Shown: piece after piece, positions 3,444 to 39,225 of the stretch
How positions within the stretch are numbered: position 1 is the stretch's first letter
How the letters are laid out: every line of letters begins with the position of its first letter
Assembly (NCBI RefSeq): GCF_021390495.1
Contig: NZ_JAJEJP010000002.1
Coordinates: forward strand, 2,170,001-2,234,000
Reading direction: 5' to 3'
Length of the DNA stretch: 64,000 bases
DNA from: Paraburkholderia sp. ZP32-5
Lineage (GTDB): Bacteria > Pseudomonadota > Gammaproteobacteria > Burkholderiales > Burkholderiaceae
Position numbers and translations under genes: made by a program
Notes under the pieces: model-generated
Seen by the model: only the letters and a program-made list of their open reading frames with translations
What the model was told of the DNA's origin: nothing
The model's database searches: none

Positions 3444-3459
3444 AGCACGGTTTGTGCCG
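3444..3459 (-). promoter_or_regulatory. Putative sigma-54 promoter of moxR operon
   Basis: Read on the minus strand: CGGCACAAACCGTGCT, with GG and GC exactly 10 nt apart as in the TGGCACG-N4-TTGC consensus. Predicted start is near 3433, giving a leader of about 130 nt before moxR. Eye-based match, supported by the same arrangement at other C1 operons in the window. Confidence 0.55.
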
Positions 3460-3525
3460 GTCGCGCGAACGGGCCGGCGTGGTAGGCCGCTTGCGAATAG
3501 TTGGCAGCCTGTCACGAGATTCGGG

Positions 3526-3540
3526 TACACACTGTGCCAT
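3526..3540. promoter_or_regulatory. Putative activator-binding dyad upstream of moxR
   Basis: TACACACTGTGCCAT, centred on CAC-T-GTG, about 70 bp upstream of the -24 element. The overlapping 15-mer at 3524-3538, read on the minus strand, matches the perfect palindrome at 19056-19070 in 13 of 15 positions. It fits the position of an enhancer site for a sigma-54 activator. Confidence 0.4.
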
Positions 3541-3613
3541 CGGTCGTGGCTATAACGCGCTTGTGCGTCACCTGTGCCTCACCTTGCGGCGACGTCATGC
3601 CGACGCCGACGCG

Positions 3614-4195
3614 TCATCGAGGCGAGCCCGCCTTCGCACCATCATCGACGAGCAGGCCGACGAGCGCCGTCGCGCCGCGCCGCCACGACAGGTCCGTATT
3701 GCCGCGAATATCGACCGAGCGCTGGAACAGGGTCCTGCCGCTGGCGACGTCCTGCACGCGCAGGTTCATGTTCAGAATCAGATTGCTGACCTTCTGGACC
3801 CAGCAGACGCCCACCTGTTCGACGCCCAGTTCGCTGCCGACCTGGCGGGCGCAGCCGTCGCACGAAGTGAGGTCCTGGTTCGCGCCGAGCCGCGCGATCA
3901 GGCCGGCGGCACGCTGGTTATCGGCGACGCGGTAGCGCCCGCTCGTGTCTAGCTGAGCGCGCAGCGCGTCGCTGACCATGCCGAGACGAGACGCTTGCGC
4001 GCGGTTGGTATCGGCATCGTTATAGGCGGCGTTGTCGTCGATCAGTCCGCAGTTCAGCACGGCAATCGAAACCGGCTCGGCCGATGCCGGCATCGCGCCG
4101 AACAGCAACAAAGCCGAAGCGCAAACCGCAGGTGCACCCGCGCGAAGCGGCGCACAAAACGCGAACCCGATCCGCAAAAAGTCCGCTCTCCGCAT
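3614..4195 (-). CDS. Exported DUF2380-type protein
   Basis: 193 residues from the ATG at 4195, chosen because it starts directly before a signal peptide (MRRADFLRIGF... ASALLLFGAMPASA) and leaves just 4 bp after the LysR stop; the frame stays open upstream but that part looks non-coding. The mature part contains a cysteine pair (TSCDGCARQ, about residue 135) and ends in a compact domain typical of DUF2380, a family of periplasmic or outer-membrane proteins of unknown function seen near methanol oxidation genes. A role in methanol oxidation is inferred from location only. It is last in the xoxF-G-J transcription direction. Confidence 0.65.
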   Translation of the reverse strand: MRRADFLRIGFAFCAPLRAGAPAVCASALLLFGAMPASAEPVSIAVLNCGLIDDNAAYNDADTNRAQASRLGMVSDALRAQLDTSGRYRVADNQRAAGLIARLGANQDLTSCDGCARQVGSELGVEQVGVCWVQKVSNLILNMNLRVQDVASGRTLFQRSVDIRGNTDLSWRRGATALVGLLVDDGAKAGSPR

Positions 4196-4199
4196 CTCG

Positions 4200-5204: not shown

Positions 5205-5226
5205 GTGAATTAGCCGCCGCCCGCTT

Positions 5227-6003
5227 TCAACGGCTGGCCCTCGGCGCGTTGGCGGACGGCTTCGCCGGCGCATTGGCCGGCGGCGACAACTTGCGCACCA
5301 CCGACTGGAAGCTCATCGATTCGCTATGCGCCGGATGCGCGAAGTCGTTGTTCGGCCCCGGCACGTCGGTGCGAATCTGCACGAGCTGGCCGGGCACGTC
5401 GTCGGCGAGCAGGAACGTGTAGCGCTTGCCAATGTATTGCGCAAAGCGCTCCGCATTCGGATCGTTCAGATAGGGCTGCACGACGATGCGGCGCGTGTGG
5501 ACCGGCTTGCCGCCGACTTCTCCCGGCACGTTCTCGATCTGCGGCCCGGCGGCGAGCGCGAGACGCAAACGCTGCTGGAAATAGCGGCGTTGGCCGCCCG
5601 TCAGCCCCTGCATCTCGGCGATGTCGCGTTCGAGAAAATAGATGATCGCCGGATTGCATTGCAGCCCGCCGATCGGCAGATTCACGTTGCCGCTATGGTC
5701 CGATACCTGAGCGTCGCCTTTTGCGTTGTCCGGGCTCACCACCAGCACCTTGACGACGTCGGCGCTATGCGACGGCTGCTCGGAATTGATCACCGAGTAG
5801 TCGAGTTCGGTCTGCGCATCGACGCCGTGCAGATGATCGGTCAGAAAGATCAGGCGTTCGGCCGGCGTGATGTCGCTGCTGCCCTGCTCGCCCGCCGCCA
5901 GCGCAAGCGCGGGCGTCAGGCTCGACACACAGACCACGCACATCATCAGCGTCGACATCAACGCGACGCTGGCCGCGCGTACCCAGCCGCGCGCGCGCGT
6001 CAT
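5227..6003 (-). CDS. Secreted protein of unknown function in the xox cluster
   Basis: 258 residues from an ATG that overlaps the xoxJ stop (ATGA). It has a signal peptide (residues 1-37, ending near LALAAG) and a mature part with one cysteine (GLQCNPAIIYFLERDIAEM) and a Pro/Ala-rich tail. I do not recognise a characterised family. Translation coupling to xoxJ and export suggest a periplasmic partner of XoxF, XoxG or XoxJ; this is inference. The longer open frame upstream overlaps xoxJ and is rejected. Confidence 0.7.
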   Translation of the reverse strand: MTRARGWVRAASVALMSTLMMCVVCVSSLTPALALAAGEQGSSDITPAERLIFLTDHLHGVDAQTELDYSVINSEQPSHSADVVKVLVVSPDNAKGDAQVSDHSGNVNLPIGGLQCNPAIIYFLERDIAEMQGLTGGQRRYFQQRLRLALAAGPQIENVPGEVGGKPVHTRRIVVQPYLNDPNAERFAQYIGKRYTFLLADDVPGQLVQIRTDVPGPNNDFAHPAHSESMSFQSVVRKLSPPANAPAKPSANAPRASR

Positions 6004-6911: not shown

Positions 6912-6946
6912 CGTAAGCCTCCGAGGTATGACGGCCTGCCGGTTTG

Positions 6947-7566: not shown

Positions 7567-9384
7567 TCAGCTCTTTTCGTTCGGAATCGCGAACACGAAC
7601 AGCGTGCCGCCCAGCGCGGTGTACTTCGCCAGTTCACGATAGCCGCCGACCGCGCCCAGACCTTCGGTCGACTTTTCCAGACCGGCTGCCATGCCGATGC
7701 CGGCCCAGCCGCCGATGCCCGAGTACACGCCGACATACTGCTTGCCCTGATACTCGTAGGTGAAGACGTTGCCGATGATCCCGGACGGCGTCTTGAAGCG
7801 CCACAGTTCCTTGCCGTCGCTGATGCGAACCGCCTTCAGGTAGCCTTCGAGCGTGCCGTAGAACGCGATGCCGCCGCCGGTTGCGAGCACGCCCGACCAC
7901 ACCGAAAACTTCTCCGGCTTCGAGTAGACGATCTTGCCTTTGCTCGCGTCCCACGCGATGAAGTTGCCCATCGCGTTGTTCTCGTTCGGACCCGGATACA
8001 TCGACAGCGTGGCGCCCACATACGGCTGACCGGACACGTAGTCGACATCGAACGGCTCATAGTCCATACAGACGTGGTTGGTCGGCACGAGGAACATCTT
8101 GCTGTTCGGATCGAACGCGGCCGGTTGCTGGTCTTTCGAGCCGAGCGCGGCCGGGCAGATGTTCTTCACGTTGTGATCGGAACCGGCTGCCTGGGTGGAA
8201 TACGCGGCGTTGCGAATCGGCAGACCGCTTTGCAGATCGACGCGATCGGCCCAGTTCACCGCCGGGTCGTACTTCTGCGCAACCAGCAACTGACCGGTTT
8301 CGCGATTGAGCGTATAGCCGAAGCCGTTACGGTCGAAGTGAACGATCGCCGGCACCGTCTTGCCGTTGATGTTCAGATCGGACAGGATCATTTCGTTGAC
8401 GCCGTCATAGTCCCATTCGTCGTGCGGCGTCATCTGGTAGACCCATCTGGCGGTGCCGGTATTCAGGTCGCGCGCGAAGATCGACATCGACCATTTGTTG
8501 TCGCCCGGACGTTGCGTCGGGTTCCATGTGCCCGGATTGCCAGTGCCGTAGTAGACAAGGTTCAGTTTTGGATCCCACGCATACCAGCCCCACGTGGTGC
8601 CGCCGCCGAGCTTCCACTGATCGCCCTTCCACGACTTCAGCGACGAATCCGCGCCCACCGGCACCATCTTGCCGTCGGTATACGTCATCGTCTTTTGCGG
8701 GTCGAGCAGCATTTCGTTGTCGGGGCCCGTGCTGTACGCGGTCCAGGCCGGCTTGCCGGTCTTGATGTCGTACGCGATCAGACGCCCGCGCACGCCGAAC
8801 TCGCCGCCCGAAATGCCGGTCAGCACCTTGTCGCCGAATACGTGCGGCGCGTTGGTGTTGGTTTCACCCGCCTTCGGATTGCCGTTCTGCGCAGTCCACA
8901 CCACTTCGCCGGTTTTCGCGTTCAACGCCACCAGCTTGGTGTCGGCCTGCTGCAGGAAGATCTTGCCGTCACCGTAGGCGAGGCCGCGGTTCACGGTATC
9001 GCAGCACATCACGGAGACCACCTGCTCGTCCTGCTTCGGCTGATACTGCCAGATGAAGGTCTGATCCTTCAGGTTGATCGCAATCACCTTGTTCGGAAAC
9101 GGCGAATGGATATACATCGTGTCGCCGATCACGAGAGGCGAACCCTCGTGGCCGCGCAGCACGCCCGTCGACATCGTCCATGCGACCTGCAGCTTGCCGA
9201 CGTTGTTCTCGTTGATCTGCTTGAGCGGGCTGTAGCGGTGATTCGCATAATCGCCCGCCTGGGCCGCCCAGTTGGCCGGGTTTTTCATCAGTCCATCGAG
9301 CTGCGAATCGGCCTGCGCAGCCAGAGAGCTAAAGGCTGCCGATGCGAGGATCGCGAGCCCAAGAACCACAGTGCGTAAGTTCAT
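7567..9384 (-). CDS. xoxF: Lanthanide-dependent methanol dehydrogenase XoxF
   Basis: 605 residues with a signal peptide (cleavage after about residue 25) and the eight-bladed quinoprotein propeller. The vicinal disulfide CC (residues 127-128) is intact. In the motif [12 protein letters not shown] the catalytic Asp325 is followed two positions on by Asp327, the extra acidic ligand that marks lanthanide-type enzymes; calcium-type MxaF has Ala there. The protein looks like the XoxF5 clade. It oxidises methanol in the periplasm with PQQ and passes electrons to XoxG. It is first in the xoxF-G-J operon, with a sigma-54-like promoter about 145 bp upstream. Confidence 0.96.
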
Positions 9385-9543: not shown

Positions 9544-9678
9544 GAAAGTGGCGGCGAATGCCGTGGCCGTTGCGCGAACCCGCTTGAGCGGCGCGCGCGT
9601 CGTATCACAGCCGCTCTCGCGTCGCACGTTCGCTCGCGCGCTGTGGCAACCTTGAACTGGTTGCGCCACCGAACGCGG

Positions 9679-9693
9679 CACATACTGTGTCAC
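9679..9693. promoter_or_regulatory. Putative activator-binding dyad upstream of xoxF
   Basis: CACATACTGTGTCAC; the right half GTGTCAC is a perfect match to the half-site seen as GTGACAC at 10401 and 39016. It lies about 140 bp upstream of the xoxF -24 element. Confidence 0.4.
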
Positions 9694-9803
9694 TTCGGTG
9701 ATACGAATCGTGTCCTTTGCGAATCGTGCGCCGCACCACCGGTCCGCCGCTCGCGGCAACGCCTGGCACGACGGACGATTCCCGCATCCGAGGAGCGACA
9801 GTC

Positions 9804-10202
9804 ATGGCAAAGACAGAGCAGGTCTATACGGACGACGAGGTTCAGCAGCGTCTCGTCGGTCCGTTGCAGCACTGGTATCTGGAGGACGGCTGGCTGCGGC
9901 GCAAGTACCGCACCGAGGGCTGGAAAGGCACGCTGATGGTGGTCAACACGGTCGGCCATCTGGCGGAGGCCGCGTGGCATCACCCGGATCTGACGGTGTC
10001 GTACGCGTTCGTCACGGTGAAGCTCAAGACGCATAGCGCGAAAGGCATCACCGACAAGGACTTCGCGCTCGCGACGAAGATCGAATCGGTGGTCCACTGG
10101 CAGCCCGGTCTCGAAGACGGGCCGCTCGAAGGCACGCCGTCCGACGATCAGCGCTTCCGCTATATCAAGTACGACGCGCCGAAAGCGGCAGAAGGCAGCT
10201 GA
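9804..10202 (+). CDS. pcd: Pterin-4a-carbinolamine dehydratase-like protein
   Basis: 132 residues from ATG 9804 with AGGAG at 9791-9795. The central EAAWHHPDLTVSYAFV carries the HHP motif of the PCD/DCoH family and is followed by the THSAKGITDKDFALA region also typical of it. In methylotrophs a pcd gene accompanies H4MPT genes and is presumed to act in pterin synthesis. The protein is longer than the roughly 100-residue standard form, with a specific carboxy extension. Family assignment is solid; the role in H4MPT synthesis is inferred from location. Confidence 0.82.
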   Translation: MAKTEQVYTDDEVQQRLVGPLQHWYLEDGWLRRKYRTEGWKGTLMVVNTVGHLAEAAWHHPDLTVSYAFVTVKLKTHSAKGITDKDFALATKIESVVHWQPGLEDGPLEGTPSDDQRFRYIKYDAPKAAEGS

Positions 10203-10400: not shown

Positions 10401-10415
10401 GTGACACAGTGCACC
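10401..10415. promoter_or_regulatory. Putative activator-binding dyad upstream of H4MPT operon
   Basis: GTGACACAGTGCACC. The left half is the ideal GTGACAC; the right half keeps GTG and the final C. It lies about 120 bp upstream of the -24 element. Confidence 0.45.
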
Positions 10416-10535: not shown

Positions 10536-10551
10536 TGGTACGGCTTCTGCT
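10536..10551 (+). promoter_or_regulatory. Putative sigma-54 promoter of the H4MPT operon
   Basis: TGGTACGGCTTCTGCT matches TGGCACG-N4-TTGC at all but two of the conserved positions, with correct 10-nt spacing between GG (10537-10538) and GC (10549-10550). Predicted start near 10562, leader about 128 nt. Confidence 0.55.
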
Positions 10552-10689: not shown

Positions 10690-11715
10690 ATGCCGCTTCA
10701 GCTCCGCCGCCTCCCGCCGCGCACCGCCGTCACGATCGACGCACCCGCGCGCCTGCATCTGGGTTTTCTCGATCCGAACGCATCGCTGGGCCGCGCGTTC
10801 GGCAGCCTCGGACTGGTGATCGACGCACACAGCACACGGATCGAAGCACGCATCGCCGAGCGCGAGCAAATCAACGGCGCGGCCAACGATGCCGAACGCG
10901 AACGCATCGCGCTATGTGTCGCGCGCCTGCAGGCCGCTTACGGACCCACGACGCTCGCCATCGACGTGCTCCATGCGCCGCGCGCTCACACCGGCCTCGG
11001 CTCCGGCACGCAACTGGCGCTGGCCATCGGCACCGCGTTCGCGCGCCTCGCCGGCGAGCCGGCCAGCAGCGCCGAAATCGCCAGTCTGCTCGGGCGCGGC
11101 GCGCGCTCCGGCATCGGCATTCTCGGTTTCGATCACGGCGGCCTGCTGCTCGACGGCGGGCCAGCCGGCGATCTGCGTCGGAGCATGCCGCCGTTGCTCG
11201 CGCGCCAGCCGTTTCCGGAGCCGTGGCGCGTGCTGCTCGTCAGCGACAACAGCCGCGAGGGTTTGCACGGCGGCGAGGAACGCCGCGCACTGGCGTCGCT
11301 CGCGCCGTTCCCGCAGCGGCTCGCCGCGCATCTGTGCCATCTGGTGCTGATGCAGATCCTGCCGGGCGCCGCCGAACATAACTTCGTGCCGTTCGCGCAC
11401 GGCCTCACCGAAATGCAGCAGACCATCGGCGAATACTTCGCGAGCGCGCAAGGCGGCGTGTTCGCGAGCCCCGACGTCGAGCGCGTGCTGCGCGCGGTCG
11501 CCGCCGAGCGCACCGCCGGCATCGGCCAGACCTCGTGGGGGCCGACCGGCTTCGCGATCGTCGCGAGCGCGCGCGAGGCCGACAGCGCGCTCGCGACCGC
11601 GCGCGCGGCGGCACGCGCGATGCCGCATATCGAATGCAGCATCGTGGCGGGCCGCAATAGCGGCGCGGAGATTCGCGACGCCCACGCGCACGCGCCGCAT
11701 ATCGACGCCGCATGA
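10690..11715 (+). CDS. Beta-ribofuranosylaminobenzene 5'-phosphate synthase (H4MPT biosynthesis)
   Basis: 341 residues of the GHMP-kinase-like fold, with the family's glycine-rich segment RAHTGLGSGTQLALAIG (about residues 97-113) and a typical opening (VTIDAPARLHLGFLDPN). Beta-RFAP synthase joins 4-hydroxy- or 4-aminobenzoate to phosphoribosyl pyrophosphate, the first committed step of methanopterin synthesis, with loss of CO2 and PPi. Length and motif order match the methylotroph enzymes. It heads a plus-strand series running to the small exported protein at 18.4 kb. Confidence 0.9.
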   Translation: MPLQLRRLPPRTAVTIDAPARLHLGFLDPNASLGRAFGSLGLVIDAHSTRIEARIAEREQINGAANDAERERIALCVARLQAAYGPTTLAIDVLHAPRAHTGLGSGTQLALAIGTAFARLAGEPASSAEIASLLGRGARSGIGILGFDHGGLLLDGGPAGDLRRSMPPLLARQPFPEPWRVLLVSDNSREGLHGGEERRALASLAPFPQRLAAHLCHLVLMQILPGAAEHNFVPFAHGLTEMQQTIGEYFASAQGGVFASPDVERVLRAVAAERTAGIGQTSWGPTGFAIVASAREADSALATARAAARAMPHIECSIVAGRNSGAEIRDAHAHAPHIDAA

Positions 11716-12888: not shown

Positions 12889-14148
12889 GTGAAGCCGCAG
12901 CGGCCGCCTCCGCACGCACACACGCACGCGCAGCATGCGCAGCACACGCATGCTCATGCGCCGTTCGTCGCGGTGGCCGGCGTGTCCGCGCGGCTCGTCG
13001 CGCAATCGGCGGTGCGCGCGGGGCTGCGCGTCGCCGCGCTCGATCTCTTCGGCGACCGCGACACGCGCGACGCCGCCGAGCTGTGGTTCGACATCGGCTG
13101 CGGCGCGCTGGCGGTCGATCGCGTGCGGCTCGTCGATGCGCTGACGCGGCTTGCGCGCCTGCCGGACCTGCTCGGCTGGATCGGCGGCAGCGGGCTCGAA
13201 CCGCTAATGGCACGGCTGTGCCGCGAACCCGGTCTGCCGCGCCTGCTCGGCAACGCGGCCGACACGCTCGAAGCGGTCCGCGAGCCGCGGCGCTTCTTCG
13301 CGCTGCTCGATGCGTTGGGCATTGCGCATCCCTCCGTGTCGTTCGAACGGCCCACGCCGGCCGACGATTGGCTCTTCAAAGATGCGGACGGTTGCGGCGG
13401 CACGCATATCCGGCCCGCGGCACAAGTCGACGCGGCGCCGCTGCCCGCGCGCGGCTATTTCCAGCACATCGGCGGCGGCCAGTCGATGTCGGCGCTCTTT
13501 ATCGGCGCGCGCGGCCGCGCTTATCTGATCGGCTTCGCCGAGCAGTTGAGCTGCCAGATCGGCACGCTGAACTATGTGCATGCCGGCTCGATCGGCCCGA
13601 TCGCGATGCCGCCGGCGGTGGTTGTGCGCATTCAGGCCGCGCTCGACGCACTGTGCGAACGCACCGGTCTGGTCGGCATCAATAGCTGCGATTTTCTGTT
13701 CGACGGCGCCGAGTTCCAGTGGCTCGAAATCAACGCGCGGCCTTCATCGACGATGGCGCTGTACGAAACCGCGTCGCCCGATGCGTGGCCGCGCGGGCTG
13801 CTCGCCTGCCATCTCGATGCGTGCCGTTTCGGCCGCGCGCCGTCGAGCGCGAGTCTCGCGCTCGCGCGTGAGCCGCGCTGGTGCGCGGGCCAGCAGGTGC
13901 TGTTCGCGCCGACGCCGTTCACCGTATCGCTGGCATTTTCCGACCTGTGCGCGAACGATCCGCAATGCCGCGACGTGCCGATGCCCGGCACCGCGATCGA
14001 AGCCGGGCAACCGGTGTGTACGCTGCTCGTGCGCGCGGCATCGGCGAGCGCGGTGCGGTGCGCGCTCGATGACGCGCACACGCGCGTCGCCCTCCGAATC
14101 GAAACCTGCGATGAACCCGACTATGCCTTCATCCAATCCCATTTCTGA
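12889..14148 (+). CDS. ATP-grasp protein of the H4MPT cluster (Orf17-like), His-rich amino end
   Basis: 419 residues from GTG 12889, 10 bp after mtdB; no ATG lies downstream before the first strand of the fold. The domain begins at FVAVAGVSARLVAQSA with the ATP-grasp core ending in the metal-binding FQWLEINARPSSTM (about residues 280-293). Related genes are part of conserved H4MPT clusters and are thought to add amino acids to the cofactor side chain, which is not proven. Unusual is a leader with seven His in 15 residues (residues 9-23). The end overlaps the mch start by 38 bp. Confidence 0.75.
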   Translation: MKPQRPPPHAHTHAQHAQHTHAHAPFVAVAGVSARLVAQSAVRAGLRVAALDLFGDRDTRDAAELWFDIGCGALAVDRVRLVDALTRLARLPDLLGWIGGSGLEPLMARLCREPGLPRLLGNAADTLEAVREPRRFFALLDALGIAHPSVSFERPTPADDWLFKDADGCGGTHIRPAAQVDAAPLPARGYFQHIGGGQSMSALFIGARGRAYLIGFAEQLSCQIGTLNYVHAGSIGPIAMPPAVVVRIQAALDALCERTGLVGINSCDFLFDGAEFQWLEINARPSSTMALYETASPDAWPRGLLACHLDACRFGRAPSSASLALAREPRWCAGQQVLFAPTPFTVSLAFSDLCANDPQCRDVPMPGTAIEAGQPVCTLLVRAASASAVRCALDDAHTRVALRIETCDEPDYAFIQSHF

Positions 14149-15154
14149 ACCCGCCGGGCTGCCGGCCGACGCGCCCAGCGTCAATGCGCTGAGCGAGCGG
14201 CTGGTCGCCCGCCTCGTCGACAATGCCGCGCGCCTCGGCGTCGCGATCACGCGCACCGACAGCGGCACCGTGATCGCCGATGCCGGCGTCGACGCGCGCG
14301 GCGGCATCGAAGCCGGCGTGCTGATCGCGCGGATCTGCATGGGCGGACTCGGGCGCGTCGCGGTACGCGCGAACTTCGACGCCGCGCCGCTGTGGCCAAC
14401 GATGATCGAAGTCAGCACGTCGTCGCCGGTGCTGGCCTGCCTCGGCAGCCAGTACGCGGGCTGGAGCCTCGCGGCGACCAAGGAGCAGACCGGCGGCAAG
14501 AAGTTCTTCTCGCTCGGCTCCGGCCCCGCGCGCGCATTGGCCGTCAAGGAGCCGCTGTTCGCGGAACTCGGCTACCGCGATCGCCACGAGCGCGGCGCGC
14601 TGGTGCTCGAAGTGGACCGGCTGCCGCCGCAGGTGATCATCGACAAGGTGCTGCACGATTGCGGCCTCGCGCCCGATCAACTGACGCTGATCGTCACGCC
14701 GACACAGTCTGTCGCGGGAACGGTACAGGTGGTCGCGCGCGTCGTCGAAGTTGCATTGCACAAGGTGCATGTGCTCGGCGTGCCGCTCGATGAAGTGGTC
14801 GAAGGCGCGGGTTCGGCGCCGTTGCCGCCGCCCGCTCCCGACGGCATTCAGGCGATGGGCCGCACCAACGACGCGATCCTGTACGGCGGCCGCGTGCATC
14901 TGACCGTGCGGCACGACGAGGTCGCGCGACGGCTCGCCGACGAGCTGCCCGCCGCGACATCGCGCGATTACGGCCGGCCGTTCGCGGACATTTTCACGTC
15001 GTTCAATTTCGACTTCTATCAGATCGATGCGGCGCTGTTCGCGCCGGCCGAAGTGTGGGTCAGCAGCCTCGAAAGCGGCGCGACCTATCATGGCGGCCGG
15101 CTCGATGGCCGCCTGCTGCAGGACCAGTGGGGCGGCAAGTCCGTAACCGCATGA
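14111..15154 (+). CDS. mch: Methenyl-H4MPT cyclohydrolase
   Basis: 347 residues from ATG 14111; an ATG at 14123 in the same frame is an alternative. Conserved Mch segments are clear: GGLGRVAVRANFD, EVSTSSPVLACLGSQYAGW and SLGSGPARALAVKE. The enzyme hydrolyses methenyl-H4MPT to N5-formyl-H4MPT in the cytoplasm, the step after MtdB. It overlaps both neighbours, by 38 bp with the ATP-grasp gene before it and by ATGA with the one after it, so translation is likely coupled. Confidence 0.93.
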   Translation: MNPTMPSSNPISEPAGLPADAPSVNALSERLVARLVDNAARLGVAITRTDSGTVIADAGVDARGGIEAGVLIARICMGGLGRVAVRANFDAAPLWPTMIEVSTSSPVLACLGSQYAGWSLAATKEQTGGKKFFSLGSGPARALAVKEPLFAELGYRDRHERGALVLEVDRLPPQVIIDKVLHDCGLAPDQLTLIVTPTQSVAGTVQVVARVVEVALHKVHVLGVPLDEVVEGAGSAPLPPPAPDGIQAMGRTNDAILYGGRVHLTVRHDEVARRLADELPAATSRDYGRPFADIFTSFNFDFYQIDAALFAPAEVWVSSLESGATYHGGRLDGRLLQDQWGGKSVTA

Positions 15155-16195: not shown

Positions 16196-17179
16196 ATGAC
16201 CGGCCCACCCACCTCCCTCACCCCGTTGCTCGAACGCGCTCGCGCGGCCTTCCTCGAAGCCTGCGCGCTCGATGTCGCGACGCCGAAACCCGGCAACGTC
16301 AGCACGCAGAGCCCCGGTCACGGCATGAGCGCCGACCAGTTCGTCGCCAGCGCGCATGCGTCGCTCGACGCGCTGTTCACACCCGGTGCGCGCGTCGGCC
16401 AGCGCATTCTCGACGCGGTCACCCGCACGCGCGCGGTAGCCGGCTGCAACACGAATCTCGGCATCGTGCTGCTCGTCGCCCCGCTCGCGGCGGCGCTCGA
16501 CCAACTCGACGACCGCGGCAACTCCAGCGCCCCGAGCGAAGCCAGCGAAACCAGCGAAAACCACAAGCCCACCCTATCCACTCAAACCTGGCGCGCAGCA
16601 GTATCACGCGTGCTGACAAAACTCGATATCGACGACGCCCACCTCGCATACCGCGCGATTGCACTCGCCAACCCGGGCGGACTCGGCGACGCGCCCGAGC
16701 AGTCGATCCACGCGCCGCCGACCATCGGCCTGCGCGACGCGATGCGTCTCGCCAGCGAGCGCGACAGCATCGCCCGGCAATACGCAAACGGCTTCGCGGA
16801 CCTGTTCGACACCGGCCTCGCCGCGTACCGCGAAGCCCCCGCCGAAGCCCCAGCAGATGCCCTCGAAGTCGCAATGCTCAACGTCTTTCTCGCGTTCCTC
16901 GGCGGCTGGCCGGACTCTCACATTGTGCGCAAGCACGGCCTTGAGCTGGCGCAGAGTGTCACGCTTGCGGCACGCGAGCAGCAGGCGCGCTGGCGGCAAA
17001 CAGCAGCCCTGTCGCCGCAATCCCACCGCACCACCGCCGATCCGCAACTCGACGCCTGGGATGCCCAACTGAAAGCGCGCGCGATCAATCCCGGCACCAG
17101 CGCGGACCTGGCGGTAGCCACGCTCTTCGTCGCGCGCTGTATCGAAGCTGGCCGCGCGCCTGAGCCCGCCGCGAGCTGA
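16196..17179 (+). CDS. Triphosphoribosyl-dephospho-CoA synthase (CitG) family protein
   Basis: 327 residues with CitG-family landmarks: EACALDVATPKPGNVS near residue 21, RTRAVAGCNTNLGIVLL near residue 80 and a late HIVRKHGLELAQSV. True CitG makes the citrate lyase prosthetic group, but no citrate lyase genes are here. CitG-like genes are a fixed part of H4MPT clusters (orf7 in Methylobacterium, to my recollection), so it more likely transfers a phosphoribosyl-type group during H4MPT or methylofuran synthesis. A low-complexity Ser/Glu insert lies about residue 108. Confidence 0.75.
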   Translation: MTGPPTSLTPLLERARAAFLEACALDVATPKPGNVSTQSPGHGMSADQFVASAHASLDALFTPGARVGQRILDAVTRTRAVAGCNTNLGIVLLVAPLAAALDQLDDRGNSSAPSEASETSENHKPTLSTQTWRAAVSRVLTKLDIDDAHLAYRAIALANPGGLGDAPEQSIHAPPTIGLRDAMRLASERDSIARQYANGFADLFDTGLAAYREAPAEAPADALEVAMLNVFLAFLGGWPDSHIVRKHGLELAQSVTLAAREQQARWRQTAALSPQSHRTTADPQLDAWDAQLKARAINPGTSADLAVATLFVARCIEAGRAPEPAAS

Positions 17180-17236: not shown

Positions 17237-17252
17237 TGGCACGGAACCTGTT
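17237..17252 (+). promoter_or_regulatory. Putative sigma-54 promoter of fae
   Basis: TGGCACGGAACCTGTT has a perfect -24 half TGGCACG; the -12 half is CTGT, so the usual GC is GT. Predicted start near 17263, leader about 95 nt. No GTGACAC-type dyad was found upstream, so confidence is modest. Confidence 0.45.
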
Positions 17253-17357: not shown

Positions 17358-17867
17358 ATGGCCAAGATCAACCGCGTCATGATCGGGGAGTCGCTCGTCG
17401 GTGACGGCAACGAGGTCGCGCATATCGACTTGCTGATCGGACCGCGAGGTTCGGCTGCGGAAACCGCGTTCTGCAACGCGCTCACCAACAACAAGGACGG
17501 CTTTACTTCGCTACTCGCCGTCGTCGCGCCCAATCTCCTTACCAAGCCGAACACGATCCTGTTCAACAAGGTGACGATCAAGGGTGCGAAGCAGGCAGTG
17601 CAGATGTTCGGCCCCGCTCAGCACGCGGTGGCGCTAGCGGTTGCCGACAGCGTCGAGGACGGCACCATCCCGAAAGACGAGGCCGACGATCTGTTCGTGT
17701 GCGTCGGTGTCTTCATTCACTGGCAGGCGGACGACGACAAGAAGATCCAGGAGTTCAACTACCAGGCGACGCGCGAGGCGATCAAACGCGCGGTCAACGG
17801 CGAGCCGAGCGCCGCCGAAGTGGTATCGAAGAAAGGCAGCGTCGCGCATCCGTTCGCGCCGAACTGA
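17358..17867 (+). CDS. fae: Formaldehyde-activating enzyme
   Basis: 169 residues with GGAGG just before ATG 17358. Fae signatures are complete: [19 protein letters not shown] with the catalytic His (residue 22 here), [16 protein letters not shown] and [17 protein letters not shown]. Fae speeds the condensation of formaldehyde with H4MPT to methylene-H4MPT and is usually among the most abundant proteins in methylotrophs. It follows the CitG-like gene by 178 bp and has its own candidate promoter, which fits a need for high expression. Confidence 0.97.
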
Positions 17868-18979: not shown

Positions 18980-19347
18980 GGTGTACTCCGCCGCGGTGCG
19001 GCCCAAAGGTTGAACAGCGGTTGAACAGCGTGTCAGCAACGATGCGACGGCGCGCGGCACACTGTGTGCCGAAGCTGCAACAGGCATATAGCGCGCGATA
19101 TAACGCCGGCGTCGTACAGGCAGAAAAGCAAATTTCGGGCACACTGCAACAACACCGTATGAGTCCCGGTTGTACCAAAGCGGTATCGGGCGTAGAGTTT
19201 TAAATCACCACCTGAGAGACGGTTGGTCGCGAGGGCGCAAGCGGACACACGATTCCGCGGCACCAAGGGCATATCGGCTTGATAAAGCGGCATTCGCGGT
19301 GCAAATGCGTAGGGCGCGCCCGAAATGACGCAACGGAGACATCCCCC
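18980..19347. promoter_or_regulatory. Divergent control region between folB-like gene and sigma-54 activator
   Basis: 368 bp with no credible gene. It contains a perfect palindrome at 19056-19070 and a related partial site near 19138 (GGGCACACTGC). A weak -24/-12-like sequence directed at the activator gene is at 19224-19239 (TGGTCGCGAGGGCGC core). Confidence 0.5.
19056..19070. promoter_or_regulatory. Perfect 15-bp palindrome, candidate activator operator
   Basis: GGCACACTGTGTGCC: seven-base arms around a central T. It is about 280 bp upstream of the activator start and about 77 bp upstream of the folB-like start. It is the most symmetric member of the GTGACAC-N-GTGTCAC-like set in this window. 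Confidence 0.5.
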
Positions 19348-21444
19348 ATGTCATTGCTCGCTGACAGCAGCACGCATGTCCGAGAGGTGCTGAACGTGGT
19401 CAACCATCAGTTGACCACACGGCCCACCAGCGAATCCGTGGCCCAGTCATGGGCACGCTGCATCAACGAATTCCAGCTAGACCCCGCCCGTTTCGTCCCA
19501 CCACCTGTTCTTACCGAGTACGAACTCAGCGCGCGCCGTGAAGCGCTCGGCGATCTGATCGCCTGTTCGAAGCTCGAAATGACCACGCTCTACCAGCAAC
19601 TGGCCGACCCCGAACTGGCGGTCGTGCTGGTCGACTCGGGCGGCGTGATCGTGCATCAGGTGTCGTCGGTGCCATTCGCCGAGGCGGTCGCCGGCGACGG
19701 CTTCCGCGTCGGCGCGCTGTGGAGCGAACGCGAAGCCGGCACCAACGGCATGGGCACCTGCCTCGCCGAGCGCGATTGCATCGCGGTGTGCCAGCACGAA
19801 CATTTCTATCCGCGCTATACGTCGCTCACCTGCTCGGCCGCGCCGATTTTCGACGACAGCGGCGAGATCGCCGGCGTGCTCGACGTGACCAGCCGCTCGA
19901 AGCTGCTGCAACAGCACTCGCTGGTACTGGTCGGCATGTCGCGGCAGATGATCGAAAACCGTCTGCTCGACGCGCGCTACCGGCACGCGAACATGATCCA
20001 CTTCCACAGCCGCCCGGAATTCGTCGGCACGTTGCACGGCGGCAAGCTCGCGGTCGCGGACGACAGCACCGTGCTCGCCGCGAATCGCAGCGCGCTGTTC
20101 CAGCTCGGCTTCCGCTCGCTCAGCGAATTGCGCGGACGGCGTATCGAAGAGGCCTTCAACGCGTCGCTCGAAGACATGATCGCGCGCAGTATCCGCGGCT
20201 CGTTCCATCCGGTCACCGTCTATAGCGCGAACGCGACGAACCGCTTTTTCCTCGTCGCGCAGACACCGCAGAACAGCGCTGGCCGCGTCGCGCGCGTGCT
20301 GGTGCCCGAATACGCGACGCGCAACACCGGCAGCACCAGCGCCGCGAGCAGCAGCGGTAGCAGCAACGGCAGCGCGGCCGACAGGCACACGCACACATCT
20401 GCACCGAAACTCGACGAGATCGCTCACCTGGAGTTCGGCGATCCGCGCATGGCCTCGCAGATCCAGCTCGCCGCGCGCGTGATTCAACGCAAGATTCCGA
20501 TCGTGCTGCGCGGCCAGACCGGCACCGGCAAGGAAGTGTTCGCGCAGGCGCTGCACAGCATCAGCCCGCATGCGGACGGGCCATTCGTGCCGGTCAACTG
20601 CGCATCGCTGCCGGAGAATCTGATCGAGAGCGAACTGTTCGGCTATCGCGCCGGCGCATTCACCGGCGCGCAACGCGAAGGCCGGCGCGGCAAGATCGTG
20701 CAGGCCAACGGCGGCACGCTGTTTCTCGACGAAATCGGCGACATGCCGCTGGTGTTGCAGGCGCGTCTGCTGCGCGTGATCGAGGAGCACGAGGTCACGC
20801 CGCTCGGCGCCGAAACCACGGTCAAGGTCAACTTCCAGTTGATCAGCGCGAGCCACCGCAATCTGCTCGAACTCGTGCAGAGCGGGCAATTCCGCGAGGA
20901 TCTGTATTACCGCCTCAAAGGTGTCGAGCTGAATCTGCCGGCGCTGCGCGAGCGGGTCGACAAACTGCCGCTGATCCATCATCTGCTCGCCAACGAAACC
21001 GATGATCCGCCCGAGCTGACCCGGGAAGCCGAGCACGCGCTGCTGACGTACGCGTGGCCGGGCAATATCCGGCAACTGCGCCATGTGCTGCAGATGGCGA
21101 TCGCGCTGTCCGACGGTCAACCGATCAGTTGCGAGCACCTGCCGCCCGAGGTCACGCAACGGATGTCGGCGCTCGATATCCCCACCGCGTTGCGGCTCGC
21201 CAGCGCCGACATGGACGCGCATCTTGCCGACGACGCCGATATCTCCGCGCTCAACGCGATCCAGTTGAACGAGCGCGAAACCGTGCTGTCGCTGCTCGAC
21301 GAGCATCGCTGGAACGTCAGCAACGTCGCGAAGGCGCTCGGCATCAGCCGCAACACGCTGTACCGGAAGATGCGCCGGCTGCATATCCGGCTGTCGCACG
21401 AGGGCTCGCCGCCCGACGGCATGCCGTTCGATCCCGACGCATGA
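19348..21444 (+). CDS. Sigma-54-dependent transcriptional activator (AcoR-like)
   Basis: 698 residues. A GAF-type sensory region (about residues 80-200), a PAS-like segment (about 220-320) and a Ser/Gly linker (325-345) precede an intact AAA+ domain: Walker A GQTGTGKE (389-396), the sigma-54 contact loop GAFTGA (436-441), Walker B GGTLFLDEIGD (455-465). A Fis-type helix-turn-helix ends the protein (NVSNVAKALGISRNTLYRK). The layout is that of AcoR-like regulators that sense small alcohols, aldehydes or ketones. The gene overlaps dmrB by ATGA, tying it to H4MPT metabolism. The start at 19348 was preferred over an upstream frame with no similarity. Confidence 0.9.
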   Translation: MSLLADSSTHVREVLNVVNHQLTTRPTSESVAQSWARCINEFQLDPARFVPPPVLTEYELSARREALGDLIACSKLEMTTLYQQLADPELAVVLVDSGGVIVHQVSSVPFAEAVAGDGFRVGALWSEREAGTNGMGTCLAERDCIAVCQHEHFYPRYTSLTCSAAPIFDDSGEIAGVLDVTSRSKLLQQHSLVLVGMSRQMIENRLLDARYRHANMIHFHSRPEFVGTLHGGKLAVADDSTVLAANRSALFQLGFRSLSELRGRRIEEAFNASLEDMIARSIRGSFHPVTVYSANATNRFFLVAQTPQNSAGRVARVLVPEYATRNTGSTSAASSSGSSNGSAADRHTHTSAPKLDEIAHLEFGDPRMASQIQLAARVIQRKIPIVLRGQTGTGKEVFAQALHSISPHADGPFVPVNCASLPENLIESELFGYRAGAFTGAQREGRRGKIVQANGGTLFLDEIGDMPLVLQARLLRVIEEHEVTPLGAETTVKVNFQLISASHRNLLELVQSGQFREDLYYRLKGVELNLPALRERVDKLPLIHHLLANETDDPPELTREAEHALLTYAWPGNIRQLRHVLQMAIALSDGQPISCEHLPPEVTQRMSALDIPTALRLASADMDAHLADDADISALNAIQLNERETVLSLLDEHRWNVSNVAKALGISRNTLYRKMRRLHIRLSHEGSPPDGMPFDPDA

Positions 21445-22085
21445 CCTCGACGCCCGCAGACGAGTCCGCCGGCGAGCCCCCACCCGCATCGGCCCCTGTG
21501 CCCGCGCGCGATCTCGCCGACTTCAAGGCGGACGCACGCTTCGCGTGGTGCGTGACCGGCTCCGGTCATCTGCTCGAAGAATCGATTGCGCTCGCGCGGC
21601 GGCTGCCGCGCGTGGACCTGTTTCTATCGTCCGCGGCCGAGGAAGTACTGCCGCTCTATGGCTGGCCGCTCGATAAACTGCGCGAGCAGTTTCGCGTGCT
21701 GCGCGACAACAGCGCGAGCGGCGTGCCGGTCGGCATGCTGTATCACGGCGTCTATCACACGGTCGTCATCGCGCCCGCGACCAGCAACACCGTCGCCAAA
21801 TGCGCGTATGGCATCTCCGATACGCTGCCGACCAACATGTACGCACAGGCCGGCAAGCAATGCATCCCCGGCATCGTCTTTGCATGCGATACCGAACCGA
21901 GCGTCGTCACGCATAGCCCGGACGAATGGGTCGAACTGCGGCCGCGCGCGATCGAACTCGATAACGTCGAGCGCCTCGCGCGCTTCGAATACACGACGCT
22001 CGTGCGCTCGCTCGACGAACTGAAGGCAGCGCTCGATCAACGTCTCGCGACTCTCGATCTCGCATGGACCACCTCCTCTTCCTGA
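21441..22085 (+). CDS. dmrB: Dihydromethanopterin reductase, flavoprotein type
   Basis: 214 residues, start overlapping the activator stop (ATGA). After a Pro/Ala-rich leader, the flavoprotein fold begins with FAWCVTGSGHLLEES, and the second half carries APATSNTVAKCAYGISDTLPTN and two further cysteines. This matches the archaeal-flavoprotein-like DmrB family, described from Burkholderia xenovorans, which reduces dihydromethanopterin to H4MPT with FMN. It overlaps the next gene by 22 bp. Confidence 0.85.
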   Translation: MTSTPADESAGEPPPASAPVPARDLADFKADARFAWCVTGSGHLLEESIALARRLPRVDLFLSSAAEEVLPLYGWPLDKLREQFRVLRDNSASGVPVGMLYHGVYHTVVIAPATSNTVAKCAYGISDTLPTNMYAQAGKQCIPGIVFACDTEPSVVTHSPDEWVELRPRAIELDNVERLARFEYTTLVRSLDELKAALDQRLATLDLAWTTSSS

Positions 22086-31385: not shown

Positions 31386-33248
<1,863 letters not shown>

Positions 33249-33272: not shown

Positions 33273-33288
33273 GGGCATGGAGCTTGCG
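33273..33288 (+). promoter_or_regulatory. Putative sigma-54 promoter of pqqA
   Basis: GGGCATGGAGCTTGCG: GG (33274-33275) and GC (33286-33287) with 10-nt spacing and a canonical TTGC. The 14-base core GGCATGGAGCTTGC is identical to the one upstream of fhcB. Predicted start near 33299, leader about 69 nt. Confidence 0.65.
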
Positions 33289-33540: not shown

Positions 33541-34146
33541 ATGATCCACGAAACGATCGTTACCACGGCAGCGTGTGATGGCCGTCCACATATCGCGCCG
33601 ATGGGCGCGCGCTACGAGGGTGAGCGCATCATCCTCTCTCCTTTCCGTCCGTCCACGACGCTCGACAATATCGTTGCGTCGCGCGCGGCGGTTCTGAATT
33701 TCACCACCGACGTGCGCATCTTCGCGGGCTGCGTCACGCACTGCGCAACCGACTGGCCGACCGTGGCCGCGAGCCGCGTCGCCAGCGTGCGGCTTGTCGA
33801 ATCGCTCGCGCATGCCGAGCTCGAACTCGACGAACTGCGCGACGATGCGCAGCGCCCGGTGCTCTATATGAAATGCGTGCACCGCGAAAACCATGCGCCG
33901 TTCGCCGGTTTCAACCGCGCGCAATCGGCAGTGGTGGAAGGCGCGATTCTGGTGAGCCGGCTCTTTATGCTGCCGCCGGAAAAGATCGATAGCGAAATGG
34001 CGTATCTGCAAATCGCGATCGACAAGACCGCCGGCGAGCACGAGCGCACCGCATGGGGCTGGCTCGTCGCCGCGGTCGCGCGGCATCGCGCGAGTCTCGA
34101 AGCGTCGCCCAGTGCTAGCGGGCACGCCGCCGCTGTACATCATTGA
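33541..34146 (+). CDS. DUF447-family flavin-reductase-fold protein
   Basis: 201 residues, beginning MIHETIVTTAACDGRPHIAPMGARYEG, characteristic of DUF447, whose members have a split-barrel FMN-binding fold and occur with H4MPT and methanofuran genes in archaea and methylotrophs. The reaction is unknown. It lies between pqqA (98 bp) and mfnB (21 bp), in the same direction, so it likely belongs with methylofuran or H4MPT synthesis. Confidence 0.75.
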   Translation: MIHETIVTTAACDGRPHIAPMGARYEGERIILSPFRPSTTLDNIVASRAAVLNFTTDVRIFAGCVTHCATDWPTVAASRVASVRLVESLAHAELELDELRDDAQRPVLYMKCVHRENHAPFAGFNRAQSAVVEGAILVSRLFMLPPEKIDSEMAYLQIAIDKTAGEHERTAWGWLVAAVARHRASLEASPSASGHAAAVHH

Positions 34147-34167: not shown

Positions 34168-34908
34168 ATGACCGCATTGCTCGCGAGCGTTCGCTCGGAT
34201 GACGAAGCATTCGACGCCGCTCGCGCGGGCGCCGAACTGATCGACCTGAAAGAGCCGAACGACGGCGCGCTCGGCGGCCTTGCGATCGGCGACATCGCGA
34301 ACATTGCGCGGCAGTTGCGCGCGCGCTATCCGGTCAAGCCGATCAGCGCGGCGATCGGCGATGTGCCGGCCGATGCGGCCGACGAGATCGCCACGCGCGT
34401 GATCGAGGTCAGTGACGCGGGCGTCGACTATGTGAAAGTCGGCATCGCGCGCGGACCGGCCGCGCGGCGTTGCATCGAGCAGCTTGCCAGTTTGCCGGCC
34501 ACCGTCGTGCCGGTGCTGCTGTGCGACGGCGGCATGGACGACGACCTGGTCGCGCACACGGCCGCGCTCGGCTTTGCCGGTGTGATGTTCGATACCGCGA
34601 GCAAGGACGGCGGCACGCTGTTCGATCACGTCGATGTCGACACGCTCGCGCGCTGGTTGCGGCTCGCGCGCCAGCGCGGCGCGATGGTCGGCATCGCCGG
34701 CGCGCTCGGCTGGGCGCAACTCGCGCAGATCCGCGCGCTCGCGCCCGACGTGGCAGGTTTTCGCACCGCACTGTGCAGTGATGGAAGGCGGTCGCGGCTC
34801 GATCCGGAGCGCGTCGCGCAGTGGGCTAGCGCGTTGCATCGGCCGCTGGGTGGGCGTGGCGCGGGTGGGGATGCGGCGGTGGGTGTTGGAGATGCGGCGC
34901 GGCGGTGA
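34168..34908 (+). CDS. mfnB: (5-formylfuran-3-yl)methyl phosphate synthase
   Basis: 246 residues. The amino end MTALLASVRSDDEAFDAARAGAELIDLKEPNDGALGG carries the Schiff-base lysine in DLKEPNDG; the second conserved segment is DYVKVGIARG and the third GFAGVMFDTASKDGG. MfnB condenses two glyceraldehyde-3-phosphates to the furan ring of methanofuran; methylotrophs use it for methylofuran, the carrier of the Fhc complex encoded 5 kb away. The last 20 residues are Gly/Ala/Arg-rich. Confidence 0.88.
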   Translation: MTALLASVRSDDEAFDAARAGAELIDLKEPNDGALGGLAIGDIANIARQLRARYPVKPISAAIGDVPADAADEIATRVIEVSDAGVDYVKVGIARGPAARRCIEQLASLPATVVPVLLCDGGMDDDLVAHTAALGFAGVMFDTASKDGGTLFDHVDVDTLARWLRLARQRGAMVGIAGALGWAQLAQIRALAPDVAGFRTALCSDGRRSRLDPERVAQWASALHRPLGGRGAGGDAAVGVGDAARR

Positions 34909-35828: not shown

Positions 35829-35829
35829 A

Positions 35830-37089: not shown

Positions 37090-37098
37090 CTAACACAC

Positions 37099-38196
37099 TC
37101 AAGGCCGCAGCTCGGAAGCTCGCCGCAACGAATCGGTCCGCGCCGTCGTGGATCGCCCGACCCGTACGCCGTGCGCGTCGAGCAACGCGCGCGCGAGTGT
37201 GCCGCCGCGTGCCGCCGACAAGCCCGCATACGCGACCGTCAGACGCGGATTCACTTCGATCACGACCGGCCCACGGCGCGGATGCCACACCACATCGATA
37301 CCGACGAAGCCACGCAAGCCCGGTATCGCTCGCGCGACACGCTGCGCGAGCGCATGCAGCACGCGGCCCTGGTCGCTGAGACGATCGATCTGATCGACCA
37401 GCACGCCATCGAATTCGACGATTTGTGCCGCGTGATTCTCCATGTGATTAGCCGTGTATTCACCGCTCAAACCGATCTGCTGCCGATTGATGCTGACGAG
37501 TTCGGTGCCGCCGTCGCGGCAGATCAGCGACAGGCTCAACGGCTCGCCGTCGACCCACGCCTGCAGCACCGGATTGCGCGCCGCCGCCGCACGCGCGTCG
37601 TATTCAGCGCAGGCATCGGCGAAGCGCTCGAATACGATCGTGTCGAGGCCGCCCGCGCCGTCGTCCGGCTTGACGACCCAGCGCTCCGCGTCGTCTTCGC
37701 CCGACTCGTCCGGCTCACCCACGAGGCCCGGCTCCAGCGCGGGCGTCGTCGCGATGCCGTGCGTGGCCAGGCACGCGGCGGTCGCGCTCTTGCTCGACGT
37801 GACGCGAATCGCCTCCTTCGCGCAGCCGAGCCAGCGCGCGCTGCCGACCGCATCATGAAAACGCAGCAGCAGGCCGTCGCATTCCGGCGCGATGATCCAC
37901 GCGTAATCGTGCTCGCGCGCCGCGCGCGCGACGAAGGCCGTCATCGATTCGCCGGGCGCGGCCATACAATGGGCGTCACCCGCGCCAAGCGTTTCGAAGC
38001 GCGACGTCGCGAACGTGACCTCGACGCCGTCGACTTCGCGCAGATCGGCGACCAGCGCGTCGCGCATCACCCGTCCTTCGACGATCAGCGCGCTCAGGTC
38101 GGCGAGACTGCCCGCGCCGGCCAGTTCGGGATCGATGCCGCCGCCGGTGAGATACTCGTAGACAAAGATCTTGGTCAAAGGAACGCGCCCCCACAT
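37099..38196 (-). CDS. ATP-grasp ligase, MfnD-like (tyramine/tyrosine-glutamate ligase)
   Basis: 365 residues from ATG 38196; a TTG at 38178, giving LTKIFVYEYLTGGG as the start of the fold, is the more natural start because the ATG coincides with the divergent gene's start. ATP-grasp features: RWVVKPDDGAGGLDTIVF (about 170-187), PVLQAWVDGEPLSLSL and GPVVIEVNPRLTVAYAGL. MfnD adds glutamate to tyramine (tyrosine in bacterial methylofuran). It is 9 bp upstream of the MfnF-like gene. Confidence 0.75.
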   Translation of the reverse strand: MWGRVPLTKIFVYEYLTGGGIDPELAGAGSLADLSALIVEGRVMRDALVADLREVDGVEVTFATSRFETLGAGDAHCMAAPGESMTAFVARAAREHDYAWIIAPECDGLLLRFHDAVGSARWLGCAKEAIRVTSSKSATAACLATHGIATTPALEPGLVGEPDESGEDDAERWVVKPDDGAGGLDTIVFERFADACAEYDARAAAARNPVLQAWVDGEPLSLSLICRDGGTELVSINRQQIGLSGEYTANHMENHAAQIVEFDGVLVDQIDRLSDQGRVLHALAQRVARAIPGLRGFVGIDVVWHPRRGPVVIEVNPRLTVAYAGLSAARGGTLARALLDAHGVRVGRSTTARTDSLRRASELRP

Positions 38197-38944
38197 GCAG
38201 GTGATACCGGTTATCGATCTGCTCGACGGCCACGTCGTGCGCGCGGTGCGCGGCGAACGCAGTGCCTATCGGCCGATCCAGTCCCGCCTCGCCGCGAGCA
38301 GCGAGCCGCTTGCCATCGCTGCCGCGCTGCTCGAGGCCAGCGGCGCAAGCACGCTCTATATCGCCGACCTCGGCGCGATCCTGCGGCACGGCGCGCATGC
38401 GTCGACGCTCGCCGCGGTGCGCGCCGCGCTGCCCGGCGTCGAGCTGTGGCTCGATGCGGGCTTCACCGACTACGCATCGATGCGCGCGCTGTTCGATCGC
38501 ATCGACGCACATGGCGACGCACACGCCCCCACTGCCCCACAACTCGCGACGCTCGTGCCCATATTCGGCACCGAGTCGCTGCGCGACATCGACGCGTTGC
38601 GCGCGTCGCAAGCCGACGGCCTTGCCCCGATCCTGTCGCTCGATCACCGCGCGGGCCAACTGCTGACCGCCGCCGAACTCGACCCTTCATCGGCATGGTG
38701 GCCGTCGCGCGTGATCGCGATGACACTCGACCAGGTGGGCAGCTACGCCGGCCCCGATCTCGCCAGCTTCGAACGCATCCGCTCACGTGCCGCCGCGCAC
38801 ACCACGGTGATCGGCGCGGGCGGCATCCGCAATCGCGACGATATGGCCGCCGCGGCCCGCACCGGCGCGACGGCCTGGCTGGTTGCATCGGCGCTGCACG
38901 ATCGGCACATCGACGCCACGCGCTCCGATTCCACGCCGGCTTGA
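38195..38944 (+). CDS. HisA/HisF-like TIM-barrel protein of the methylofuran cluster
   Basis: 249 residues from ATG 38195. It opens MQVIPVIDLLDGHVVRAVRG like HisA and has STLYIADLGAIL and VIGAGGIRNRDDMAAAA, but no histidine operon is nearby and the central region diverges. HisA-like proteins recur in H4MPT and methanofuran clusters with no proven function. Its start codon shares the CATG with the opposite ATP-grasp frame, so the two genes are tightly divergent. Confidence 0.72.
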   Translation: MQVIPVIDLLDGHVVRAVRGERSAYRPIQSRLAASSEPLAIAAALLEASGASTLYIADLGAILRHGAHASTLAAVRAALPGVELWLDAGFTDYASMRALFDRIDAHGDAHAPTAPQLATLVPIFGTESLRDIDALRASQADGLAPILSLDHRAGQLLTAAELDPSSAWWPSRVIAMTLDQVGSYAGPDLASFERIRSRAAAHTTVIGAGGIRNRDDMAAAARTGATAWLVASALHDRHIDATRSDSTPA

Positions 38945-39015
38945 CCATACAATTTCCATGCCACGCGGTAAGTAACCTGCGAATGTAAGCGAACGACAAG
39001 CTGCGCGAAATTCGC

Positions 39016-39030
39016 GTGACACTCTGCTCC
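39016..39030. promoter_or_regulatory. Putative activator-binding dyad upstream of fhcB
   Basis: GTGACACTCTGCTCC, left half ideal, about 180 bp upstream of the fhcB -24 element. Near-copy of the pqqA site at 33134. Confidence 0.4.
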
Positions 39031-39209
39031 AGCTCCGCACACAACCTGTGAGACGCAGCGGCCTTCGAGCCCGCATGTCACGCGCGCGATCGACACGCAT
39101 TCGCACCCGCGCAACGAATCCGTCATCCGCTTAAACACGAAGCCGCACGACCGTGCTGCGTGTGCGGACTCGCCGTGCCGATGCTGCGCCTGCGCATCGT
39201 CATCGCAAT

Positions 39210-39225
39210 CGGCATGGAGCTTGCT
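39210..39225 (+). promoter_or_regulatory. Putative sigma-54 promoter of the fhc-pqq operon
   Basis: CGGCATGGAGCTTGCT: GG (39211-39212) and GC (39223-39224), 10-nt spacing, canonical TTGCT. The 14-base core is identical to that before pqqA. The predicted start, near 39236, is one base before the fhcB ATG. Confidence 0.65.

Follow-up and report, generated by a model that had tools for sequence, protein, structure and literature searches.

A probable sigma-54 regulon for methanol and formaldehyde oxidation in Paraburkholderia sp. ZP32-5

Paraburkholderia sp. ZP32-5, a soil bacterium, carries a one-carbon (C1) island with the methanol dehydrogenase gene xoxF, genes for tetrahydromethanopterin (H4MPT)-linked formaldehyde oxidation, pyrroloquinoline quinone (PQQ) genes and fhcBADC. 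The 64,000 nucleotides analysed here (G000:C2:2170001-2234000, within a 9.09-Mb genome of four contigs) are referred to as the window. Very probably, sigma-54 controls this island as one regulon, with a locally encoded activator driving it. Joint sigma-54 control of XoxF, H4MPT, PQQ (pqqA) and Fhc genes had been proposed in a sequence-only reading of the window, and the proposal is strongly supported because the promoter-like sites are conserved in related islands, an activator is encoded in the cluster, a palindrome lies upstream of several promoters and paralogous islands have a like layout. The activator gene and the upstream palindrome were both absent from that reading.

Sites with GG and GC ten nucleotides apart, in a TGGCAYG/TTGC context matched to varying degree, precede moxR (3459-3444, minus strand; CGGCACAAACCGTGCT), xoxF (9543-9528, minus strand; CGGCATGGAATATGCG), the H4MPT operon (10536-10551, plus strand; TGGTACGGCTTCTGCT), pqqA (33273-33288, plus strand; GGGCATGGAGCTTGCG) and fhcBADC, perhaps including the cytochrome b561 gene (39210-39225, plus strand; CGGCATGGAGCTTGCT), all where the sequence-only reading had placed them. 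The near-site that it described before fae is also present (17237-17252, plus strand; TGGCACGGAACCTGTT), with GT instead of GC at -12, and all six sites point toward the adjacent gene, as had been claimed. A shared core, GGCATGGA, had been offered as an argument against chance; it holds for xoxF, pqqA and fhcB, and the other three sites are without the core. As predicted promoters, those of xoxF, the H4MPT operon, fhcB and pqqA are close to certain and that of fae is likely, while moxR is the regulon member of least certainty and could still be a chance match. RpoN, which has two matches in the genome (G000:C1:440154-440621 and C2:1687477-1687947), would be the factor that uses these sites.

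It is scarcely credible that the sites are chance matches to a short motif in GC-rich DNA. GG-N10-GC is by itself common, and GGCATGGANNNNGC with up to two mismatches gives 145 matches against 119 expected by chance, a slight excess, though none of 100 shuffles reaches 145. A matrix written from the sigma-54 consensus was used to score 34 upstream regions (8,212 nt) and 200 shuffles of them, with the antisense strand as a control. The comparison with shuffled DNA, which had been put forward as a check, came out in favour of real sites: at 10.5 bits or more there are seven (the six and one before dhps) versus a shuffle mean of 0.72, with no shuffle reaching seven and three sites on the antisense strand. 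At 11 bits or more six sites are left (moxR, rfap of the H4MPT operon, fae, dhps, pqqA and fhcB; mean 0.54; 0/200 shuffles; antisense 1) and the xoxF site, at 10.8 bits, is lost; at 13 bits or more there are two, a number equalled by 2/200 shuffles (antisense 1). The pattern GGCATGGANNNTGC, derived from these very sites, has seven places in 9.09 Mb, three of them inside the window (binomial 1.2e-5). The shuffle test and the conserved footprints together refute chance for xoxF, H4MPT, fae, fhcB and pqqA, moxR aside. The dhps site (12.6 bits; 12/34 islands) was rejected as a false positive, since it lies within an open frame (21054-22085) that was absent from the gene list used for the shuffle test and its variation falls at third codon positions.

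Conservation in relatives is stronger proof than statistics in this genome. The comparison covered 42 islands, namely this one, L001 and 40 others picked by hand for spread from the genomes with a match (74/144 in the genus and 68/349 in the family, the family draw overlapping that of the genus); of these, 35 have xoxF (type 1) and seven belong to type 2. The xoxF site is kept in 35/35 type-1 islands, the H4MPT site in 34/34, and the fae site in 34/34 as TGGCAYG..TGTT/TGAT, so that the off-consensus -12 is itself conserved. Where fhcB is covered, its site is found in 26/26 type-1 and 5/5 type-2 islands, and the moxR site is kept in six of the eight islands covering moxR. The pqqA site is present in every one of the 29 islands where pqqA could be detected (25 islands and four whose pqqA had been missed by a first, too strict pattern; no pqqA was found in six), and in G011, G021, G107 and G070, where pqqA lies farther upstream of DUF447, the site remains with pqqA. 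Across xoxF, H4MPT, fae, fhcB and pqqA the 14-mers have a mean pairwise identity of 0.81-0.98 versus 0.33-0.36 in their flanks (0.98 versus 0.36 for xoxF). No conserved site was found before pqqB (0/9), pqqC (0/7), tkt (0/18), rbcL (0/28), lysR (0/33), the xoxJ-like gene (0/34) or folB (0/34), and the cytochrome gene has one in 1/34. The conserved 14-mers might instead be operators for another regulator, which we consider very unlikely. The -12 of fae never fits and the promoters are predicted from sequence, but conservation falls on the sigma-54 positions (GGCAYG, TTGC), the middle varies at H4MPT, pqqA and fhcB, and the paralogous rfap promoters of G079 and G133 are almost perfect matches to the consensus (TGGCAYGACGCTTGCA).

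The candidate activator (19348-21444, plus strand; the open reading frame (ORF) may begin at a TTG at 19279) is an AcoR-like sigma-54 enhancer-binding protein with GAF, PAS_4, Sigma54_activat, AAA lid and Fis-type helix-turn-helix (HTH) domains; its GAFTGA loop, AAA+ domain and HTH are those of an enhancer-binding protein. Activators of its type (type 1) are found in the same 68/144 congeneric genomes as xoxF (E<=1e-250), with stops in the activator frame in a few of the 68 and a split activator in G129. True fae (E<1e-59) occurs in 73 genomes, all with an activator, and G008 has an activator without true fae. The activator's position inside the cluster is constant in the type-1 islands read, except in G351, an island without H4MPT genes. 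Among 120 listed relatives, the named organisms are mostly Paraburkholderia, Trinickia and Caballeronia, with a few Burkholderia. It is improbable, though deserving of some weight, that the sites are real sigma-54 promoters driven by another activator and that the enhancer-binding protein of the cluster has another role. Its pairing with the palindromes is inferred, the pqqA promoter is without a convincing palindrome, and G147 has a second sigma-54 activator next to its island. Against such a division stand the co-occurrence with xoxF (68/68), the constant position and the absence of a further sigma-54 activator among the window ORFs scanned for domains, a scan that reached up to 53.4 kb and took in part of the ORFs; the regulator at 49188 is LuxR-type.

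Most sites have a palindrome, about GTGACACWSTGTCAC, 65-275 bp upstream, to which the activator may bind. The candidate enhancer of moxR is a 15-bp palindrome, GGTACACACTGTGCC (3524-3538), 65 bp upstream of the -24 and one of three genome places of GGYACANNNTGTRCC. Between xoxF and the divergent phs gene lies GGCACATACTGTGTC (9677-9691), with a weaker second copy at 9700-9714; palindrome-like GTGACACAGTGCACC (10401-10415) lies upstream of the H4MPT operon promoter, and the fae site has GGCGCAGAGTGTCAC (16948-16962) at a distance of 275 bp upstream, inside the citG 3' end. A further element, GGCACACTGTGTGCC (19056-19070), precedes the activator gene, close to where the divergent folB-like gene starts, and has 0-1 mismatch to GGYACANNNTGTRCC in 6/22 islands. 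Upstream of pqqA is weak, palindrome-like GAGACACTTTGCTTC (33134-33148), and upstream of fhcB are two palindrome-like sites about 21-22 bp apart (39016-39051), GTGACACTCTGCTCC at 39016 and GCACACAACCTGTGA at 39037. The top dyad, CACA-N3-TGTG, is found in 31 of 130 upstream regions, which are related by descent, versus 1.0 expected (pseudocount 0.5 included). Type-2 promoters bear GTGACACTGTGTCAC-like sites, and with a matrix trained on type 2 only, six of the ten best window matches fall within 2.1 kb upstream of the six sites (2.3e-7). Matches of at least 7 bits occur in type-1 islands at a fraction of 0.85 for fhcB, 0.51 for xoxF, 0.50 for phs, 0.38 for rfap and 0.14 for the activator gene. 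Two patterns partly shaped on these same sites were counted genome-wide: three of the five places of GTGACACWSTG (four in the reversed control) and two of the three of GGYACANNNTGTRCC (three per strand in the reversed control) fall within the window.

A wider regulon in this genome was considered and rejected, in pattern searches rather than a full genome scan. The four GGCATGGANNNTGC places outside the window and 13 places of a stricter pattern, TGGCAYGNNNNTTGC, lack a palindrome scoring more than 1.7 bits in the 320 bp upstream, and no site of at least 11 bits lies within 450 bp of the three palindrome places elsewhere in the genome (L213, L214, L220). The phs gene was likewise not retained as a member. 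A sigma-54-like site about 45 nt 5' of its start occurs in 14/34 islands (e.g. TGGCGCGCTGCTTGCA) and is unconvincing in this genome; it would use the same palindrome as xoxF.

The proposed mechanism is as follows. RpoN-RNA polymerase would sit on the -24/-12 sites of the H4MPT operon, xoxF, fae, fhcBADC, pqqA (which is followed by the methanofuran-type genes) and probably moxR, and the 19348-21444 activator on the palindromes upstream. The GAF/PAS region would sense a small C1 signal, the activator would then assemble, and its ATP hydrolysis would open the promoters, such that dehydrogenase, cofactor supply and formaldehyde oxidation would rise together. Formaldehyde or its H4MPT adduct, and not methanol, is guessed to be the signal, with slightly less than an even chance; the reason is that the kind of activator, the sites and the palindromes recur in paralogous islands that have N-demethylation genes but are without xoxF. 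These are type-2 islands, whose activator is 56-62% identical in the island alignments and in which no xoxF match was found in 40 kb. The HTH motif RWNVSxVAxxLGxxRNTLYRKM is found in both activator types with small changes, and both types occur together in some genomes. Type-2 sites are partly different in sequence, some near-perfect, and precede the H4MPT operon in 6/7 islands and fhcB in 5/5 covered. The three annotated neighbourhoods (G046, G147, G409) hold N-demethylation-type genes for proteins like old yellow enzyme (OYE) and trimethylamine dehydrogenase (TMADH), for Fe-S proteins and, variously, for GCV_T, LRV or electron transfer flavoprotein (ETF) proteins; G147 adds a haem-dependent N-demethylase-like protein and G409 a DmmA-like protein. 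The second activator beside the G147 island (L193:15613-16731) is 372 amino acids long, with only AAA+ and lid domains matched.

Sensing of methanol itself, or of lanthanide and methanol, is a possible alternative of less than even probability, with type-2 activators differing in specificity. BmoR is a sigma-54 activator that responds to C4-C6 alcohols (PMC6366067; PMC8899819), and more distant AcoR-like activators adjoin genes for PQQ-dependent alcohol dehydrogenases. Type-2 islands, with their like H4MPT and fhc promoters, N-demethylation genes in the three annotated and no xoxF found in 40 kb, speak against it. Among the distant loci, Dyella (L002) and Nevskia (L043) have an activator about 41% identical close to a gene resembling xoxF (57% identical in Dyella, 71% in Nevskia) that has a good sigma-54 site. 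Other PQQ-dehydrogenase genes close to activators of this kind have a site in L005, L006, L007, L030 and L048, a weaker one in L011 and none in L004, L023 and L039; the palindrome was not found in these wider loci. A more general proposal, likewise of less than even probability, is that bacterial H4MPT-linked formaldehyde oxidation is a portable module under a family of sigma-54 activators that sense formaldehyde rather than methanol. One branch would have recruited xoxF, pqqA and moxR, and the other would pair like promoters with N-demethylation.

Several observations weigh against a locally driven sigma-54 regulon of this extent. Judged from this genome alone, the moxR, fae and xoxF sites are weak, one site in the shuffle test (dhps) is coding, and TGGCAYGNNNNTTGC has no place in the window and 13 genome-wide (reversed control 8). 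The -12 of fae is GC in no island, the moxR site is missing in two of eight (G067, G351), and the activator's own gene is without a conserved site (4/35). The antisense control among islands is not clean (fhcB 13/26, rbcL 10/28, phs 9/34), and island counts are not independent because the islands are related by descent. In type-2 islands, G409 has no site before rfap, the DUF447 site is found in 1/7 (G008), and fae has only a near-site in 1/5 (G147). The palindrome matrix gives five matches at 8.0 bits or more versus a shuffle mean of 3.05 and a largest value of 6, and is thus not above shuffles. Conservation of the fae palindrome (at least 7 bits in 0.97 of 34 islands) is ambiguous because it sits in coding DNA. 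The moxR palindrome reaches 7 bits in 0.12 of eight islands, mptN, intended as a control, does so in 0.41 of 34, and the pqqA/DUF447 regions fail the type-2-trained matrix (0/28).

To our knowledge, the control of XoxF and H4MPT-linked formaldehyde oxidation in facultative Burkholderiales methylotrophs has been little studied. In known models, methanol and alcohol oxidation is under two-component control by MxbDM/MxcQE and PedS2/PedR2. These systems regulate the same enzyme class and differ from the island described here, which has -24/-12 promoters and an activator without a receiver domain. Two-component control of other genes may exist alongside sigma-54 control, since the island encodes a histidine kinase and a response regulator of LuxR type (49188-50857). 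They lie beside pqq genes in a stretch (49188-53420) that also encodes a TonB receptor, and the set may be a second control layer, perhaps for metal uptake.

Known sigma-54 activators offer closer parallels. MmoR, acting with RpoN on soluble methane monooxygenase in methanotrophs, is likewise encoded in or near a C1-oxidation cluster and has a GAF domain in two species, as does the activator here; it differs in governing methane monooxygenase and, in M. trichosporium, in requiring the chaperone MmoG (PMC5874634, in the portion available, which describes no joint control of XoxF, H4MPT, Fhc and PQQ genes by MmoR). No mmo genes were found among the window ORFs scanned. BmoR of Thauera butanivorans, acting at Pbmo, is also a sigma-54 activator and alcohol-responsive, and its upstream site, 193 bp from the -24/-12, has an inverted repeat, comparable to the palindromes here; it differs in acting on an alkane-monooxygenase promoter in response to C4-C6 alcohols (PMC8899819), where the C1 pathway of the island has five or more such promoters. 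The GAF-PAS-AAA+-Fis layout is that of the AcoR family, from which the activator differs in that its identified neighbours are C1 genes, acetoin genes not having been searched for as such. Of its 120 listed relatives, many bear the name 'transcriptional regulator of acetoin/glycerol metabolism' and others only 'sigma-54-dependent Fis family'; the acetoin name looks like transferred annotation. No description of sigma-54 control of xoxF or H4MPT genes was found in the literature searched, which was mostly non-subscription and is not proof of absence, and none is given in the available portions of PMC5023235, PMC10992012, PMC12997753, PMC13300288 and PMC12628762.

If the regulon is real, one sigma-54 activator would explain the balance of a toxic intermediate, with its producer (XoxF), cofactor (PQQ) and consumers (Fae, H4MPT, Fhc) under matching promoters. 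The activator would also be a candidate sensor of formaldehyde or methanol acting on transcription, and a tractable one.

The xoxF gene (7567-9384, minus strand) encodes a quinoprotein whose two best solved-structure matches, 6dam and 6oc5, are both XoxF, and which carries the Asp of DEWDYDG that we take to be a mark of XoxF lanthanide methanol dehydrogenase. Divergent from it is the pterin dehydratase gene phs (9804-10202, plus strand; upstream region 9740-9804). The H4MPT genes, probably one operon judging from their spacing, are on the plus strand and comprise beta-RFAP synthase (rfap, 10690-11715), an mtdB-like gene (11952), an ATP-grasp gene (12757), mch (within 13574-15154), an mptN-like gene (15055) and a citG-like gene (16196-17179), followed by fae (17358-17867, plus strand). 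The gene moxR is at 2280-3302 (minus strand), with DUF58 genes also in the window. Coding of pqqA (plus strand) starts from 33369, then follow DUF447 (33541-34146) and, 3' of it, a (5-formylfuran-3-yl)methyl phosphate synthase-like gene (34168-34908). fhcBADC (39237-44232, plus strand) is followed by the cytochrome b561 gene (44252-44836). The other window genes include a CbbR-like lysR, a xoxJ-like gene, a cytochrome gene, Calvin-cycle genes and other pqq genes.

Some minor observations concern fhcB and the activator's surroundings. The fhcB ORF as listed begins about 12 nt past the -12 element of its own promoter, and the true start is probably further downstream (39237-39330 region) because the ORF abuts that element and similarity to the family is seen only from residue 30 on. 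Just past the HisA/F-like gene and directed away from fhcB is a sigma-54-like site (38948-38963, minus strand; TGGCATGGAAATTGTA) with GT at -12, which a strict pattern recovers in 11/42 islands; with the fhcB promoter it encloses the palindromes at 39016 and 39037, as would be expected of a divergent pair. The open frame at 21054-22085 (plus strand) spans the 21445-22063 gap between the activator gene and dhps and looks coding, and GGCATCGTCTTTGCA within it differs between islands at third codon positions.

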